Shown here: positions 41,913-49,452 of the stretch, piece after piece
Position numbering within the stretch: the first letter of the stretch is position 1
Layout of the letters: the number at the start of each line of letters is the position of its first letter
NCBI RefSeq assembly: GCF_020614395.1
Contig: NZ_CP085324.1
Location: 1,493,564-1,557,563, forward strand
Reading direction: 5' to 3'
Source: Salarchaeum japonicum
GTDB taxonomy: Archaea > Halobacteriota > Halobacteria > Halobacteriales > Halobacteriaceae
Length of the DNA stretch: 64,000 bases
Translations under genes and position numbers: made by a program
Notes under the pieces: generated by a model
What the model was told of the DNA's origin: nothing
Seen by the model: only the letters and a program-made list of their open reading frames with translations
The model's database searches: none

Positions 41913-43805
41913 TTAGTCACCTGCCGCGGGTTCGAGCCGCGTCTGACTGGATGGTTCGTCGAGCCGGTCGTCGATCTCGATCTCGGCCGCTTCCACGATT
42001 TCCGCGGGTTCGAACGGGTTCCCGTTGTACTTGAGGAGGCTGGAGAGCATCTCGCCGTAGCTCCCGGTCTCCTTCTGGATGTGGCCGCGGAACTGCGCGG
42101 TCGTGCTCATCTCCACGACGAGCGCCTCGCTGACGCTGTCGAGGAAGTCACGAACCTTCCGCTCGGGGAAGGGGGCCATCTCCGAGATGGAGAGCGCCTT
42201 CACCGAGTACCCGTTCTCGTTCAGGCGGTCGACGGCCTCCTCGACCGTCCCCGTCTGACTGCCCCAGGAGACGAGACCGAAGTCCGCGGACTCGTCGCCG
42301 TACACGTCCTGGCGCTCGTCCTCGTCGAGGTCCGCGCGAATCGACCGCATCTTGCGGAGCCGGCGGTTCATCTGGTTCACGCGGTTGTCGGGGTCTTCGC
42401 TGATGTGGCCCTCGGGCGTGTGCTCGTTCCCCGTCGCGAGGAAGTGCCCGCCCTTCTGGCCGGGAATCGACCGCGGGCTCACGCCGTTCTCGGGGTCGTG
42501 GCGGAACCGCTCGAACTTCCCGAACTCGTCGTGCGCGGCCTCCGCGATTTCGTCCTCCGTGAGCGTCGACCCGAGGCTGGGGTTCGGCTCCTGGTCGAAG
42601 AACGAGGCGGGGACGTTCCGGTACTCGCCGGAGAGCTTCTGGTCGTAGATGACCATCACTGGAATCTGGTACTCCCACGCGATCTGGAACGCTTTCCGCG
42701 TCTGCTCGTAGCACTCCTCGGGGTCGCTGGGCGCGAACACCACGCGGTGGCTGTCGCCCTGGCTCGTGTAGAGGACGTGCTCCAGGTCGGCCTGCTCGGG
42801 CTTCGTCGGCATCCCCGTGCTGGGGCCTGCGCGCATGGATTCGACGAGCACGAGCGGCGTCTCCGTCATCTCGGCGAGACCGAGCGGCTCGGACATGAGC
42901 GCGAACCCGCCGCCGGACGACCCGGACATCGCCTTCACGCCCGCGTGCGACGCGCCGACGGCGAGCGCCGCCGCCGCGATTTCGTCCTCCACCTGCTCGC
43001 TGATACCGCCCACGTCGGGCATGAGCTGGGTGAGGATGGTGAACACGTCAGTCCACGGCGTCATCGGGTAGCCGGAGATGAACCGGCAGCCCTCGTCGAG
43101 CGCGCCGTACGCGATACCGTGGCTTCCGGAGACGAGCACCTGTTCTTCCTCGTGTTCGCCCTCGGGTACGGACACGTCGTGCGCGTCCACGTCGTACTCC
43201 TCCTGGACGGTCTCGTAGGCGTCGCGGAGCACGTCGAGGTTGGCGTCGAGGATGTCGCCGCCCATCGCGTCGGCCATCAGTTCCTCGATGTAGTCGAGGT
43301 CGAAGCCGATGATTGCGGCGGTCGCGCCGACCCCGGCGGTGTTCCGCATGATTTCGCGGCCGTGTTCCTTCGCGAGACCGCGGAGGTCGAGGTCGTAGAC
43401 GTGCCAGTCGTTCTCCTCGACGCGCTCGTCGAAGTTCTCGATGTCGTCGGTGTCGAGGAGTCCGGAGTCGTAGACGATGACGCCGCCCTCGCGGAGTTCG
43501 TCCAGGTTCTCGGAGAGGGGTTTGACTTCCTCCTCGCCGTAGTACGCGCCCTCCTTCGGGTTCCGGGCGAAGGAGTCGCCGAGCGAGAGCAGGAAGTTGT
43601 AGCCGTCCCCCCGGGAGCGGACGTTCTCCTCCGACGCGCGAATCTCGACGTACGTGTGGCCGCCACGGATACGCGACGGATAGTGCCGGTGCGTGAAGAC
43701 GTTGAGGCCCGAGCGCATCAGCGCCTTCGCGAAGTTCTGGCTCGTCGAGTCGATTCCGTCCCCGGAACCGCCCGCGATTCGCCAGATGAGTTCGTCGTTA
43801 GTCAT
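41913..43805 (-). CDS. porA: 2-oxoacid:ferredoxin oxidoreductase alpha subunit (PorA)
   Basis: A 630-residue subunit that fuses the gamma and alpha domains, as in haloarchaeal and some bacterial ferredoxin oxidoreductases. The N-terminal gamma domain has RIAGGSGDGIDSTSQNFAKALMRSG and RHYPSRIRGGHTYVEIRAS. The alpha domain starts near residue 225 and has GCRFISGYPMTPWTD and the EDEIAAAALAVGASHAGVKAMSGSSGGGFALM stretch. The start ATG 43805 was chosen because upstream residues are not coding-like and a TATA-like CGATAAGG lies on the - strand at 43835-43842. The size (about 630) favours pyruvate over 2-oxoglutarate. It delivers acetyl-CoA to the acyl-CoA network. Confidence 0.85.
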   Translation of the reverse strand: MTNDELIWRIAGGSGDGIDSTSQNFAKALMRSGLNVFTHRHYPSRIRGGHTYVEIRASEENVRSRGDGYNFLLSLGDSFARNPKEGAYYGEEEVKPLSENLDELREGGVIVYDSGLLDTDDIENFDERVEENDWHVYDLDLRGLAKEHGREIMRNTAGVGATAAIIGFDLDYIEELMADAMGGDILDANLDVLRDAYETVQEEYDVDAHDVSVPEGEHEEEQVLVSGSHGIAYGALDEGCRFISGYPMTPWTDVFTILTQLMPDVGGISEQVEDEIAAAALAVGASHAGVKAMSGSSGGGFALMSEPLGLAEMTETPLVLVESMRAGPSTGMPTKPEQADLEHVLYTSQGDSHRVVFAPSDPEECYEQTRKAFQIAWEYQIPVMVIYDQKLSGEYRNVPASFFDQEPNPSLGSTLTEDEIAEAAHDEFGKFERFRHDPENGVSPRSIPGQKGGHFLATGNEHTPEGHISEDPDNRVNQMNRRLRKMRSIRADLDEDERQDVYGDESADFGLVSWGSQTGTVEEAVDRLNENGYSVKALSISEMAPFPERKVRDFLDSVSEALVVEMSTTAQFRGHIQKETGSYGEMLSSLLKYNGNPFEPAEIVEAAEIEIDDRLDEPSSQTRLEPAAGD

Positions 43806-44014
43806 AGTAGGTCTCTGGCCCCCTGCAGTCTGGGCCTTATCGCAAAATTTGGCGGGACTCACTAAATCGTTTGCTATCCATTGGCAGGGAAAAATCGTGA
43901 AAAACAGGCGAGCGAGCGCCCCTCCACCGCCCTCGACGGGTTTCCCCGACGGCGTTGTGTGCAACCTCAAACACGAAAGTACAAATACAGTACCGTAAAT
44001 ATAACAGTTTAGAA

Positions 44015-47000
44015 ATGCGGAAATATCTCGTGGTTGTCCTCATCCTCGCCCTCCTCCCGACGGCCGTCGCCGCCGACGGGAACGAACGCCCACTCGCGGA
44101 AGCCGGACTCGACCAGACCGCCACCCGCGGCGCGCCCGTCTACCTCGACGCCACCGGCTCCCACGACCCAGACGGCGAACTCACCGAAACGACGTGGACG
44201 ATACGACACCCCAACGGCACGACGCGCACGCCCGACTGCGCGACGTGTCCGCGCACCACGTTCACGCCGCAAACCACCGGCACGTACGCAGTCACCGTCC
44301 GCGTCACCGACGACGACGGCGCGACCGCAAGCGACACCCTCTACGTCACCGTCGAACCGGGCGACCCGCCGACCGCTACCCTCGACGGCCCCGACGCCAC
44401 ACCGACGGGCGACGCCGCGACCTACCGCGTCGCCGCGACCGCGGGAACCGCCCCGCTCGCCACAATCTCGTGGTACGTCGACGGAACCCGCGTCCGAACG
44501 ACCGCCCTCGACGCCGCCGAGGACGCCGACACGCTCACGCACTACTTCGACCAGCCGGGCGACCACACGGTTCACGTCCGCGTCACCGACGACGACGACA
44601 CCCACGCGACCGCCCGAACCCACACGAGCGCATTCACGACACCCGCCGAACCCACGAACACCCCCGACGCACCGGACGACGGCGCGAACCCCACGACAGC
44701 GCCGCCGACCACCGACACCCCAGCCGACACGACACCGCTCCTGCGAGGGCCGCGCGTCGTCACCGGCGAACAACCGCTCACCGCACCCTACCGCGTGACC
44801 GACCGCCCCGCCGACGCGACCACCCGACTGTACGTCGACGACACCCTCAGACACCGCGGCCACACAGCGACGCTAACCCTCGCCCCCGGCGTCCACGACA
44901 TCTCCGCCACCACCGACGCGACACCCGTCCGATTCCCCGACAACACCACCACCGTCATCGCCGACCCCGCCCCAACCGCCCTCATCCACGACGTCCAAAC
45001 CGGCCCCGGACTCACCGTCACCGCGAGCGCCACCGACGCGCTCCACAACCTCGACACCCTCACCATCAGCCTCGACGGCACCCCCATCCACCACCGCGCC
45101 CGCACCGACCTCGACCACATCAAACACACCCACACCACCCTCCGCACCACCTACCGCCACCCCACCCTCTCACCCGGCAACCACACCCTCACCATCACCG
45201 CCACCGACACCAGAAACCAAACCACCACCGCCACCAAAACCATCTCCGCACCCAGACCCCCAGAAATCATCTCCGCCAACTTCGTCGGCCGCGACGACAG
45301 AACCGCCTACGACCACCGACTCTCACCCCAGAACTACATCGCCCACCACATCACCAAAATCGCACTCAACGGCGCAACACCCGCCGATGTGACTATCCAA
45401 TCAGAGCCGTCTTCTGAAGAAACATTCCGAATCACCACTCCCCCATACGACCGGACGCGAGAGTACGATGCGACCACAGACACACTCATCCTGCACGACT
45501 ACTGGGCCGTCGACATCCCCCGCCAAGCACACATCGGAACGCGAGTCCTCTGGAACGGACAACTCGGATCTGAACTATCGCTAGGCGAGTTCCGCGCGTA
45601 CCCGAGCGATCCAGTAATCCGATATACAATCGACGACAACGGGATGTATCCCTATTTCCACCAACGCGGAATGGTGATTAACGCCAGCAGAACGTTCGAT
45701 CCCGACGATGAAACGCTCGAATTTGAATGGAAAGGAAGTGGAGCTGTCAAAAAAGTATCTCCCAGAATAGCGAAAGCTGAATCATTGAGTAGATTAACTC
45801 TCGTCGTTCGCGACGGAAACGGAGGTGTATCTAGGCAAACGTACAGCTTCACTAATGGGTATGTTCCTCCTATTGGGGAGATTACTGAGGTTTCGAGCGG
45901 GCCATACCAATGGAATGACTCTGTTCAGTTCCGGGTGTCGTCCAGCGCCGAGCGGTTGCTGAAGAATCGGTACGAGAGGAACCTCCAAGTAGGGATTCGT
46001 ATACTCGGTGAGGGCCGCGTGTTGTCTTGGGACAAGAGCTACCCGTTAGTGTACGAAGGCTCTAGACAGGGCTCAGCGGTACAGTTTAGCGGCGTTGTTT
46101 CGATACCTGCAAAAGAGTTCGTAGACGGGAATCCGTCGGTAGAGTTATTCAATGAGCAAGGGGGAGACTGGAACGCAGTTTCTGAGGTACTCCCAGATGT
46201 ATGGGGACTACAGCAGGGGCCACCGGAAGTCGTGAACGAGTCGGTCATCGGCGCGGAGTACTTAGTCGAGCGTCCGACGTACACGACGCAAGTCGTTCGG
46301 AGCGAACAGAAGAAGAATGAACTGCTCGGATCCGGATACGAGATTACGAGTGCTGAGCAGGTCGGGATGCGACACACTGTAGAGGAGCGGCGGTTGGTCG
46401 CACCTGCGCAGTACGAGACGGAGTACAAGACGTTCAGCCAGCAGGGGTATCTTGAGGCGTTCCTATCGGTGAACGATGCGTGGCGCGAGGGGGCGTCGTC
46501 GACGACGCTCGAAGAGCGGTCAGTGACCGAGTACGAGTGGCGCGATTCGCGGTCGGGGAGCGGTCAGTTCACGGGGGAGACGCGGCGGGTACTCATCGAC
46601 GACGCGGACTACAAGACGTACCGGCAGTACCGGTACGACCGTCGCGTGCAGCGAACAGGGACGAAGACTGTGACGCGGTATCGGATGGGGCGCGTCCCGT
46701 ACGAGGTCACGGAGCAAGTCCGGCGGTGTAACGACTTCTTCGGGTGTTACTGGGCGACAGTCACCGAAACCCGGTGGAAGACCGTTCAGGAACCCTATCA
46801 GACGACCGTCTCGTACACGTACTGGACGACGGAAACGGAGACGTACTGGGGACTGTCCAAGCGGAGTTGGGATCACGAGTTCACCGGGCAGACCTCGCGG
46901 GTGAAGGTTCAAAACGCCCGGTACGGAACGGAGTACCGGTACAGCTACGAACGAACGTACACCGAGCGCGTAACGACGTACACCGCGACACGGCAGGTGC

Positions 47001-47320
47001 AAACCAGCGACCCGACCTACGAGTGGGTTCCGGTCGAATCGACGAGCGACATACTGGACGCCGCCTCGATCGCTGCCGATCCGACACAGCGAATCAGTGA
47101 ATCGGATCCGATTACCGCGTGGACGATGCAGAAACGAACCGGGACGCAAACCGAATGGGTCGACACGCCCGTTAGGGAGGAAATAGTCGCGAAGACACGA
47201 CTAACGGTTCGGCAGACGCTCAAAGTCCCATATGTGCGGGAACTCAGCTGGGAGGTAGTCGAGAGGAAGGTCGTGAACACGACGACCCGAACCGTAAACG
47301 GGTACGAACCAGCAGAATAA
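44015..47320 (+). CDS. Large secreted PKD-type protein with Tyr/Thr-rich repeated C-terminus
   Basis: A 1101-residue extracellular protein. Signal peptide MRKYLVVVLILALLPTAVAA. Residues about 24-120 form a PKD domain (AGLDQTATRGAPVYLDATGSHDPDG), a second PKD-like domain follows to about 210 (HVRVTDDDDTHAT), then a Pro/Thr linker and more Ig-like strands to about 425. Another PKD-like segment is near 555-610. The C-terminal 400 residues are extremely rich in Tyr, Thr, Arg and Glu strands, with an FTGxTxRV unit repeated at 852 and 956. Only four cysteines, in two close pairs (C75/C78, C905/C911). No catalytic motif seen. The start at 44015 follows an A/T-rich promoter region. Function unknown; a surface or binding role is inferred. 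Confidence 0.75.
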   Translation: MRKYLVVVLILALLPTAVAADGNERPLAEAGLDQTATRGAPVYLDATGSHDPDGELTETTWTIRHPNGTTRTPDCATCPRTTFTPQTTGTYAVTVRVTDDDGATASDTLYVTVEPGDPPTATLDGPDATPTGDAATYRVAATAGTAPLATISWYVDGTRVRTTALDAAEDADTLTHYFDQPGDHTVHVRVTDDDDTHATARTHTSAFTTPAEPTNTPDAPDDGANPTTAPPTTDTPADTTPLLRGPRVVTGEQPLTAPYRVTDRPADATTRLYVDDTLRHRGHTATLTLAPGVHDISATTDATPVRFPDNTTTVIADPAPTALIHDVQTGPGLTVTASATDALHNLDTLTISLDGTPIHHRARTDLDHIKHTHTTLRTTYRHPTLSPGNHTLTITATDTRNQTTTATKTISAPRPPEIISANFVGRDDRTAYDHRLSPQNYIAHHITKIALNGATPADVTIQSEPSSEETFRITTPPYDRTREYDATTDTLILHDYWAVDIPRQAHIGTRVLWNGQLGSELSLGEFRAYPSDPVIRYTIDDNGMYPYFHQRGMVINASRTFDPDDETLEFEWKGSGAVKKVSPRIAKAESLSRLTLVVRDGNGGVSRQTYSFTNGYVPPIGEITEVSSGPYQWNDSVQFRVSSSAERLLKNRYERNLQVGIRILGEGRVLSWDKSYPLVYEGSRQGSAVQFSGVVSIPAKEFVDGNPSVELFNEQGGDWNAVSEVLPDVWGLQQGPPEVVNESVIGAEYLVERPTYTTQVVRSEQKKNELLGSGYEITSAEQVGMRHTVEERRLVAPAQYETEYKTFSQQGYLEAFLSVNDAWREGASSTTLEERSVTEYEWRDSRSGSGQFTGETRRVLIDDADYKTYRQYRYDRRVQRTGTKTVTRYRMGRVPYEVTEQVRRCNDFFGCYWATVTETRWKTVQEPYQTTVSYTYWTTETETYWGLSKRSWDHEFTGQTSRVKVQNARYGTEYRYSYERTYTERVTTYTATRQVQTSDPTYEWVPVESTSDILDAASIAADPTQRISESDPITAWTMQKRTGTQTEWVDTPVREEIVAKTRLTVRQTLKVPYVRELSWEVVERKVVNTTTRTVNGYEPAE
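46520..47030 (+). repeat. Two divergent copies of a ~100-residue beta repeat
   Basis: Residues FTGETRRVLIDDADYKTYRQ (from base 46568) align with FTGQTSRVKVQNARYGTEYR (from base 46880), 104 residues apart. Both continue in Tyr/Arg/Thr-rich strands (YRYDRRVQRTGTKTVTRYR and YSYERTYTERVTTYTATRQ). The two copies are similar in protein but diverged in DNA, so the duplication is old. It lies inside the large PKD-type gene. Confidence 0.7.
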
Positions 47321-47348
47321 AATACTCTAAAATAAAATAAATACAAAT

Positions 47349-48224
47349 ATGGTAAATAAAAAATATATTGCTATACTGTCTGTTTGCACAATCCTCCTCT
47401 GCACGGGATTACAGATGCCGCCCCAGACGGAGACGTTCACGTCCTTCGGCGGTATCGAATACACCGTGTCGTTCGACGAGCAAACGAAGCAAATCGACCT
47501 TACCGCGTACAACCCACACGAAGAAACCAGGCAGACGGGATACGAGATCACCGTGGATCGCTGGCTGTACGCCCAGCCACATTTCAACATCTCTGCCGGA
47601 GAAACATACCAGGAATCGTTCAACGTCACTGATGGATTGGATGTTGAATCCGTAGTGCACACAGTAAACCTCACTACGTTCGGTGCCGCAGCGAAGTTCA
47701 CGTTCGACCAAGAATACAATACCCTACATCCCGGGGCCGTACCAGTCCCAAGAATCACTGATATCGAAGTCGATACTGGGACTGCTCGTGGGAACGAATC
47801 AACAGTCGTCTACGTGACTGTGGAGAACCCCAGCAAGACGGGGTATGTGTCACACGCCGTTGCATATACCGAAGAAACTTCTGCGTCGTCTAGTATGGCG
47901 AATCCCCTACCCGGAACCTCTGAGACGGTGATGTTGGAGTTGTTGGAGCCGGTTGGGTCGGATGTTCGGGGGGAGATTCGGTTGTTTATGGGGAAGCCGA
48001 ACGAGACGGAGGGGGCGTTGGAGCAGGTGGAGTTCAGCGGGGCTGCTGGGTCAGAGACCGAGTACGAGCGGGAGGCGTATGAGCCGTTCAGGCTGGACGG
48101 GCCGAACGGCGGGTATTCGTACGGTGGTTCGGGCGGTGACGACATTCCGGACGGCGTTCCGCTGCTCGTGGCGGGAGTCCTTGGTGTGGTGTTGCTCGGT
48201 GGCGCGTGGTGGTGGCGGCGTTAG
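47349..48224 (+). CDS. Membrane-anchored secreted partner protein, unknown function
   Basis: A 291-residue protein beginning with a lysine-bearing hydrophobic signal (MVNKKYIAILSVCTILLCTG). The body is beta-rich and carries several N-glycosylation-type sequons (NISAGE, NVTDG, NLTTF, NETEG). A Gly/Ser linker (YSYGGSGGDD) leads to a single C-terminal helix VPLLVAGVLGVVLLGGAWWWRR, so the protein would be held outside the membrane by its C-terminus. It starts 28 A/T-rich bases after the large PKD gene and shares its low-GC start, so they form one unit. The body resembles no family I can name. Its stop overlaps the convergent small gene by three bases. Confidence 0.7.
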   Translation: MVNKKYIAILSVCTILLCTGLQMPPQTETFTSFGGIEYTVSFDEQTKQIDLTAYNPHEETRQTGYEITVDRWLYAQPHFNISAGETYQESFNVTDGLDVESVVHTVNLTTFGAAAKFTFDQEYNTLHPGAVPVPRITDIEVDTGTARGNESTVVYVTVENPSKTGYVSHAVAYTEETSASSSMANPLPGTSETVMLELLEPVGSDVRGEIRLFMGKPNETEGALEQVEFSGAAGSETEYEREAYEPFRLDGPNGGYSYGGSGGDDIPDGVPLLVAGVLGVVLLGGAWWWRR

Positions 48225-48427
48225 CGGTCGAGGCCGCCCTGTTCGCTGACCTGGAGGATGTTCCGCATGTTGAGGTAGATTTCCTGTGGGCTGGTGTCCT
48301 CGTCGTCGTCGTAGAGGTCGCTGACGCGCTGGAGGATGGCGGCTATCTTCTCGCCTTCGTCGCTCTCGTCGCGGAGGTCGCTGGCGACGTCGCGGAGTAT
48401 CTCGCGTTTTTCGTCGTCGCTGAGCAT
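48221..48427 (-). CDS. Small acidic conserved-type protein next to mrp
   Basis: A 68-residue, mostly helical acidic protein (first residues MLSDDEKREILRDVASDLRD). It follows the Mrp ATPase gene by two bases on the same strand, so the two are co-expressed. No motif is seen beyond charged helices. Function unknown; association with Mrp in iron-sulfur handling is only contextual. Confidence 0.65.
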   Translation of the reverse strand: MLSDDEKREILRDVASDLRDESDEGEKIAAILQRVSDLYDDDEDTSPQEIYLNMRNILQVSEQGGLDR

Positions 48428-48429
48428 GG

Positions 48430-49452
48430 TTACTGGAGGCTGCGGCGGTTGAGGATGCCGGTCATGTTGGCGACGTTGCCGGCGAGGTCGCGGAAGGCGT
48501 CGCCGGTCTCGCTGTCCTGGTCGAGGACGATGGGGCGGCCGCCGTCGCCGCCTTCGCGGACGCGGGGGTCGAGGGGGAGGGAGCCGAGGAAGGGGAGGTC
48601 GTTGTCGTCGGCGAACTCCTCGCCGCCGCCGCTGCCGAAGATGTCGTGGTGGCCGCCGCAGTCGGGGCACGTGAACGTGCTCATGTTCTCGGCGATTCCG
48701 AGGACGGGGGTGTCGTGTTTGCCGAACATGCGGAGGCCCTTGCGGGCGTCGTCGATGGCGACGTTCTGGGGGGTGGTGACGACGACCGCGCCGGTGAGGG
48801 GGACGGTCTGGAGCATGGTGAGTTGGGTGTCACCGGTTCCGGGCGGGAGGTCGACGACGAGGTAGTCAAGGTTCCCCCACTCGACGTCCTCGACGAGCTG
48901 GGTGATGACCTTGTGCACCATAGGGCCGCGCCAGATGACGGGGTCGTCGTCGCCGACCATGAACGCCATGCTCATGAGTTTCATCCCGTACTTCTCGGGC
49001 GGGACGATGGTGTCGTCCTGGGTGGCCTTGGGGTGGTCGTCGGCGTCGACCATGCGGGGGACGTTCGGGCCGTAGATGTCGGCGTCGAATAGGCCGACGC
49101 GTGCGCCGCGGTCGGCGAGGCCGGCGGCGACGTTGACGGAGACGGTGCTCTTGCCGACGCCGCCCTTCCCGGAGGCGACGGCGATGACGTTCTTCACGCC
49201 GGGGAGCACGGAGCTGTCGGTGTCTGTGTGCGCGGAGATGTCGGGGGTGAGGCCTTCGTCGCTGAGCGCGTCGCGGACGCGGTTCGCGATGGAGGTCTCG
49301 TTGGGGGCGTAGGGCGCGCCGAGAGCGAGGGAGACGCTGGCGGTGTCGCCCTCGACCCGGATGTCGTTGACGAGGTTGAGCGAGACGATGTCGTCGCCGA
49401 GGTCGGGGTCCTCGACGGTGCGGAGGATGTCGCGTACGTCCTCGGGAGTCAT
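48430..49452 (-). CDS. mrp: Mrp/NBP35-family iron-sulfur carrier ATPase
   Basis: A 340-residue P-loop ATPase that binds and transfers [4Fe-4S] clusters. The N-terminal 80 residues are a MIP18/DUF59 domain (EDVRDILRTVEDPDLGDDIVSLNLV). Then comes the deviant Walker A GKGGVGKST (95-103), the switch motifs DADIYGPNVPRM and VDLPPGTGDTQLT, and the cluster-bridging CPDC (C262, C265). Full length for an archaeal Mrp. It may supply cluster proteins such as MoaA, whose gene is divergent and adjacent. Confidence 0.93.
   Translation of the reverse strand: MTPEDVRDILRTVEDPDLGDDIVSLNLVNDIRVEGDTASVSLALGAPYAPNETSIANRVRDALSDEGLTPDISAHTDTDSSVLPGVKNVIAVASGKGGVGKSTVSVNVAAGLADRGARVGLFDADIYGPNVPRMVDADDHPKATQDDTIVPPEKYGMKLMSMAFMVGDDDPVIWRGPMVHKVITQLVEDVEWGNLDYLVVDLPPGTGDTQLTMLQTVPLTGAVVVTTPQNVAIDDARKGLRMFGKHDTPVLGIAENMSTFTCPDCGGHHDIFGSGGGEEFADDNDLPFLGSLPLDPRVREGGDGGRPIVLDQDSETGDAFRDLAGNVANMTGILNRRSLQ

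Follow-up and report, generated by a model that had tools for sequence, protein, structure and literature searches.

At this locus of the haloarchaeon Salarchaeum japonicum two co-directional genes, here called BIG and SMALL, are flanked by the 2-oxoacid:ferredoxin oxidoreductase alpha gene (korA, 41913-43805, minus strand, which we take to be the gene also named porA) and mrp (48430-49452, minus strand). Positions refer to the window, that is, the whole stretch of 64,000 nucleotides that was analysed. It belongs to a genome of 2.34 Mb, in which there is no further copy of BIG. A first-pass annotation, made from the letters of the window, had described a surface system of two reading frames, 1101 and 291 residues long, between porA and mrp. 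Both frames exist and both flanks are as it stated. Its length for BIG was right, while its start at 43955 was not: that position is an in-frame TTG upstream in the same open reading frame, and ORF analysis gives the ATG at 44015 as the start codon. The features of both genes are collected in Table 1.

Table 1. Position and basis of the features of BIG and SMALL in the window
Feature	Position	Strand	Description and basis
BIG	44015..47320	+	1101-aa multi-domain protein, probably secreted; ORF; homologues in 51/243 Halobacteriales genomes
Putative signal peptide of BIG, about residues 1-20	44015..44074	+	By inspection; hydrophobic, ends AVAA
PKD domain of BIG, residues 23-113	44081..44353	+	Pfam PKD_4, E 2e-13, above cut-off
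Ig/PKD-like beta-sandwich string of BIG, about residues 116-545	44360..45649	+	AlphaFold2 strand pattern; Foldseek
PKD-like FDPD domain of BIG, about residues 550-625	45662..45889	+	Alignment; partial Sde0182_C/PKD-type matches
Repeat A of BIG, about residues 838-889	46526..46681	+	Self-alignment
Long beta-hairpin of BIG, model strands 865-906 and 910-946	46607..46852	+	AlphaFold2; arm-length co-variation
Hairpin tip of BIG, C905-NDFFG-C911	46727..46747	+	Cys pair around F/L/I/M/G residues
Repeat B of BIG, about residues 941-994	46835..46996	+	Self-alignment
SMALL	47349..48224	+	291-aa partner, probably membrane-anchored; ORF; 51/51 co-occurrence with BIG
Two beta-sandwich domains of SMALL (Ig/FN3/CARDB-like), about residues 26-249	47424..48095	+	AlphaFold2
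Predicted C-terminal transmembrane helix of SMALL, about residues 270-290, ends RR	48156..48218	+	Helix 272-290 in model; hydropathy maximum 2.06

A small conserved ORF of about 69 aa (48221-48430, minus strand, MLSDDEKREILRDVASD...) lies downstream of mrp. Its end shares 4 nt with the end of SMALL in the window, and it has a counterpart in a relative that lacks the pair (L167, 7701-7916).

Domain architecture of the two proteins

The N-terminus of BIG is a signal-like segment, MRKYLVVVLILALLPTAVAA, which is the sole strongly hydrophobic stretch of the protein. None of the 31 homologues has a hydrophobic segment after the signal. Judged by its sequence BIG is probably exported. The domain that follows scores 50.6 bits against PKD_4, where the gathering score is 27; BIG belongs to the PKD family (PF18911/PF00801), with 30 of 31 homologues matching at E <= 0.01, and in the window's BIG a CxxC lies inside this domain. 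Among solved structures, the N-terminus of BIG is closest to the PKD domains of collagenases and further secreted enzymes.

Beyond the PKD domain we rely mostly on an AlphaFold2 model, built with 31 sequences (mean pLDDT 76, pTM low at 0.34). It shows a row of beta-sandwiches to about residue 735 and then very long strands, with a linker rich in Thr, Pro and Asp (residues 210-238) where the pLDDT falls below 50. Foldseek matches of this model are strings of Ig domains, S-layer proteins among them, and are generic. In the alignment the FDPD domain is marked by an invariant F561-D-P-D. There is also a weak partial match to Sde0182_C, which is named for a cellulose-binding protein.

The C-terminal region of BIG is of a different kind. 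Residues 836-1010 are 18% Thr, 13% Arg and 11% Tyr, so the description 'PKD/Tyr-rich' given to BIG earlier applies by parts, PKD to residues 23-113 and Tyr-rich to the C-terminal third. Pfam, PADLOC and PDB hold no family for this region, no PHROG is significant and no solved relative was found in the PDB; the C-terminal ~470 residues of BIG, like SMALL, have no family match. The region contains an internal duplication, repeats A and B, with a local self-alignment score of 85 against 35.6 +/- 6.4 in 500 shuffles (maximum 60), and the hairpin segment sits between these repeats. For the motif [VITL]xx[AP]x[YFW] the 31 sequences give 125 occurrences, compared with 22.5 +/- 4.7 in shuffles.

SMALL gave a more confident AlphaFold2 model (mean pLDDT 89.4), in which two beta-sandwich domains are flanked by a helix at the N-terminus and another at the C-terminus (residues 272-290). 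A signal is predicted at its N-terminus, and in nearly all homologues a C-terminal hydrophobic segment is followed by Arg/Lys. SMALL is therefore probably membrane-anchored, in agreement with the signal peptide and C-terminal anchor that the first-pass annotation had read from the letters. The best PDB matches in Foldseek (transglutaminases, RbmA and cytokine receptors) have TM-scores of 0.2-0.3 and reflect a general likeness of fold. Pfam CARDB matches weakly in two of 27 homologues (best E 5e-4) and not in the window's SMALL. No family model covers SMALL, and no kinship between BIG and SMALL was detected.

Family-model searches gave no catalytic family for either protein, as expected from the earlier report of no catalytic motif, and SMALL, for which a match to an unrelated known enzyme would have spoken against the proposed system, matched no enzyme family. 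We reject the idea that either protein is an enzyme on these grounds.

Conservation of the pair

Of 26 genomes in the family, 12 have a SMALL homologue, and in each a full-length BIG homologue lies directly before it. We then take the wider order: profiles of SMALL and of the C-terminal half of BIG were searched in 243 Halobacteriales genomes, and strong matches to both came from the same 51. SMALL is adjacent to BIG, downstream and on the same strand in 51/51, although in one draft genome a contig end divides SMALL. Two random sets of 51 in 243 would have a negligible chance of being identical, and the shared ancestry of linked genes contributes to the agreement. Neither full-length BIG nor SMALL was ever found alone in the genomes sampled, and in many homologous pairs the genes overlap by a few bases. 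The search for a conserved pair in archaeal genomes that had been suggested for this locus thus came out in its favour, and we regard the pairing of BIG and SMALL as well supported.

The pair is spread over at least 13 genera, which include Halobacterium, Halorussus, Haladaptatus, Halomicrococcus, Halobium, Halegenticoccus, Haloprofundus, Halomarina and Haloparvum. In Halomarina rubra (L106) BIG is present as two ORFs of 431 and 603 aa, and is possibly broken or misassembled. In 393 genomes of the phylum that were searched, none outside the Halobacteriales held a homologue of the BIG C-terminal region; distant bacterial matches to BIG are weak and begin in the PKD-like part.

History of the locus

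The arrangement kor-[BIG-SMALL]-mrp is repeated in the Halobacteriaceae, Halorussus, Haladaptatus and Halomicrococcus. Of the two flanks, mrp is retained in Halomarina and some others, and kor in Halegenticoccus and a small number of others. In other lineages the pair is found in different neighbourhoods, still together. In a tree of BIG most genera hold together with strong support, as does the family of Halorussus, Haladaptatus and Halomicrococcus.

In 11 genomes from the family of the window that lack the pair, kor lies next to mrp. Of these 11, one from genus g4 in the Halobacterium group (G018) retains a C-terminal fragment of SMALL in the kor-mrp gap (L168, 7471-7632), and another (G019) has an unrelated predicted membrane protein of 261 aa in that gap (L167, 6849-7634). 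A twelfth genome without an intact pair (G004) carries a 416-aa N-terminal remnant of BIG at the kor-mrp site and no SMALL (L088, 9519-10655). The adjacency of kor and mrp in these 12 genomes, two of them with remnants, argues for an old locus that has often been lost rather than a recent island. Taken as a whole, the record points to repeated losses and some relocation of an old locus, and not to recent acquisition. Recent mobility was considered and rejected: the BIG C-terminal region has no match in phage or plasmid records, and SMALL has none in plasmid records.

Base composition and rate of change

Within the pair GC drops to 0.53-0.60, against about 0.68 around it, and GC skew reaches -0.3, so the first-pass annotation was correct that the composition differs from the surroundings. 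The suggestion that this marks a distinct unit is not supported. In the window the N part of BIG is GC-rich, and C-rich at third positions, with the C part poorer in GC, and the same step is present in all 16 sequences tested, where the N part is 5-16 points richer than the C part. As the step is common to every homologue tested, it characterises the family and does not point to foreign DNA; with the conserved synteny of this old locus, it leads us to reject a foreign island.

Both proteins change quickly. Between the window and a congener BIG is 70% and SMALL 61% identical, compared with 95-96% for mrp and korA, and dN is 0.23 for BIG and 0.31 for SMALL, with values some ten times lower (0.025-0.028) in the flanking genes. 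dN/dS is about 0.3 overall for BIG and SMALL, and this simple test gave no sign of positive selection. Fast yet constrained change of this type is as expected for exposed surface proteins. The best conserved part of BIG in this comparison is residues 801-1000, which include the hairpin, at 88-92%. Synonymous divergence is patchy along BIG, from 0.27 to 1.8 (window 44015-47317 against L077), and is 0.22 in the flanking genes; these patchy, raised values may reflect recombination at the locus.

The hairpin and its tip

BIG has a long beta-hairpin, which the AlphaFold2 model draws with low confidence (pLDDT about 50-77). Its arms were measured from sequence alone, the first from an FTG motif to the first Cys of the tip and the second from the second Cys to a YW motif. 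The first arm minus the second is exactly 20 residues in 25/25 homologues with the Cys pair. A difference of 20 was found again in 14/14 additional measurements, of which a few came from genomes in the first set, giving 39/39 in total. The arms fall into four length classes (53/33, 51/31, 39/19 and 37/17), with even-numbered steps between them, and symmetric, even-numbered changes are what is expected of an antiparallel hairpin that stays in register. That said, relatives have the same arm-length classes, which leaves only a few independent changes of length.

The turn in the model (907-909) falls between C905 and C911. Across homologues 4-5 residues lie between the two tip Cys, and the pair is present in 25 of the 27 homologues where both anchor motifs of the hairpin were found. 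Cys are missing from two of the 31 homologues (span 69), which have GDG at the turn predicted from the symmetry, a position counted by hand. Between the Cys, F/L/I/M make up 36.5% of residues against 2.9% in the arms, a contrast whose computed p-value ignores relatedness, and Gly 33% against 1.4%. The Cys pair probably closes the tip with a disulfide. In most members, two paired arms with a hydrophobic tip bounded by Cys are well supported. Four members have a shortened C-terminal region and no hairpin (L104, L105, L108 and L107, the last by profile coverage), and the pair can thus exist without it.

Discussion

Our preferred reading, to which we give about an even chance, is that BIG and SMALL form an obligate two-part, membrane-tethered surface spike or adhesin of haloarchaea, with attachment as its most likely role. 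It draws on the strict pairing, the pattern of signal and anchor, the Ig-string folds, the hairpin and the fast but constrained change. SMALL would tether BIG at the membrane, and the Ig/PKD string of BIG would span or pass the S-layer zone. The Thr/Arg/Tyr-rich region of BIG may then form a rigid beta structure from which the two-stranded hairpin would project, its strands reaching ~17-33 residues past a conserved base (~6-11 nm at 3.3 angstrom per residue). The hydrophobic and probably disulfide-closed loop at the end could contact a membrane or a partner protein, and so attach cell to cell or cell to surface. We infer the binding of BIG to SMALL, their orientation and the adhesion itself. 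The first-pass proposal of an undescribed envelope structure, adhesin or binding system is supported in part: a conserved surface unit with no enzymatic match is upheld by the 51/51 co-occurrence and adjacency, and composition as its mark is not.

To our knowledge, and apart from pili and the S-layer, there is little explanation in terms of proteins for how haloarchaea touch, bridge, mate and attach. If the pair is an adhesion or bridging device, BIG and SMALL provide a genetic handle on these processes, with a sharp feature to work from: hairpin arms that change length only together, and a hydrophobic, Cys-capped loop at their tip. No description of the pair was found in the open-licence literature searched. 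It is undescribed in the libraries and literature covered, and most of its length has no family model.

The alternative that survives best, which we still consider unlikely, is an accessory pillar that stabilises the S-layer or envelope. It would stand in the pseudo-periplasm between membrane and S-layer with its tip in the cell's own membrane, and would have no part in adhesion. Haloarchaeal S-layer proteins are built from Ig-domain arrays (PMC8640222), S-layer proteins are among the Foldseek matches of BIG, and the hydrophobic tip and the SMALL anchor could both lie in the membrane of the cell itself. The repeated clean losses in close relatives, however, show the pair to be dispensable, and its fast divergence fits an exposed element better than a part of a lattice.

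The same speed, about ten times that of the flanking genes, together with the frequent losses, would suit a role as receptor or target during conflict with viruses or with neighbours, acting in self-recognition, mating or antagonism and changing in an arms race. We find this improbable, as the overall dN/dS of about 0.3 with no positive selection in the simple test speaks against it, as do the lack of a match to PADLOC defence models and, for the BIG C-terminal region, to phage records.

A bolder version of the surface spike is that the pair is a membrane-interaction machine, in which BIG would carry its Cys-capped, F/L/I/M/G-rich loop on a rigid hairpin of variable length and insert it into the membrane of an opposing cell or vesicle, with SMALL keeping the base fixed in the membrane of its own cell. 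We have little expectation of this; if true, it would be a cell-bridging or fusion-assisting device in haloarchaea, unrelated to fusexins.

Least probable of all is a secreted complex for binding or degrading a substrate, e.g. polysaccharide capture: PKD domains are common beside hydrolases, and the collagenase and secreted-enzyme relatives of the BIG N-terminus and the weak, partial Sde0182_C match lean this way, but neither protein falls in a hydrolase, transporter or binding-protein family and no such gene is constant among the neighbours.

Comparison with known systems

For the surface spike that we favour, the nearest known systems resemble one part or another. The haloarchaeal S-layer glycoprotein (csg, TIGR04216; PMC8640222), for which Ig-domain arrays are the building plan, is like BIG an exported string of Ig-like domains at the surface. 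BIG differs in having no C-terminal anchor or PGF-CTERM, in its Thr/Arg/Tyr-rich hairpin region and in its separate, membrane-anchored partner. TIGR04216 matches neither BIG nor SMALL, its best matches in the genome lying elsewhere and below the cut-off, and on this ground we reject BIG and SMALL as the S-layer protein itself. PGF-CTERM models do not match BIG, and SMALL matches only other sorting models, below threshold. PKD-domain surface proteins share with BIG the PKD domain at residues 23-113 and further PKD/Ig-like folds, whereas the C-terminal ~470 residues of BIG and its SMALL partner belong to no family.

Two more distant groups may be set aside. PADLOC defence models gave no match for the pair, and a phage structural protein is rejected, as the only fold matches are generic Ig strings and no PHROG family is significant.

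Fsx1 and the class II fusogens (PMC9259645) share with BIG long beta strands and an exposed loop, which in BIG is Cys-capped and F/G-rich, and both are found in haloarchaea. The Fsx1 ectodomain is followed by three transmembrane segments, and haloarchaeal fsx1 is reported in integrated mobile elements (PMC9259645). BIG, in contrast, has no transmembrane segment, has a different domain order and lies at a chromosomal, syntenic kor-mrp locus, and no fusexin or class II fusogen is among the best 50 Foldseek matches of its low-confidence model. The likeness of BIG to class II fusion loops is only one of outline, and the two fusexin features tested are absent.

SMALL resembles RbmA of Vibrio cholerae and other tandem FN3/Ig proteins in its tandem beta-sandwich fold, a likeness that does not amount to kinship. 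It differs from RbmA in being probably membrane-anchored, and the TM-scores are only 0.2-0.3 at about 10% identity. Finally, the ultra-long CDR H3 of bovine antibodies has a long stalk with a disulfide-rich knob at its end (PMC8602281). By comparison, the BIG hairpin has a single Cys pair and flanks derived from repeats, and we offer the parallel not as kinship but as a mechanical analogy for the way in which a tip may be presented.
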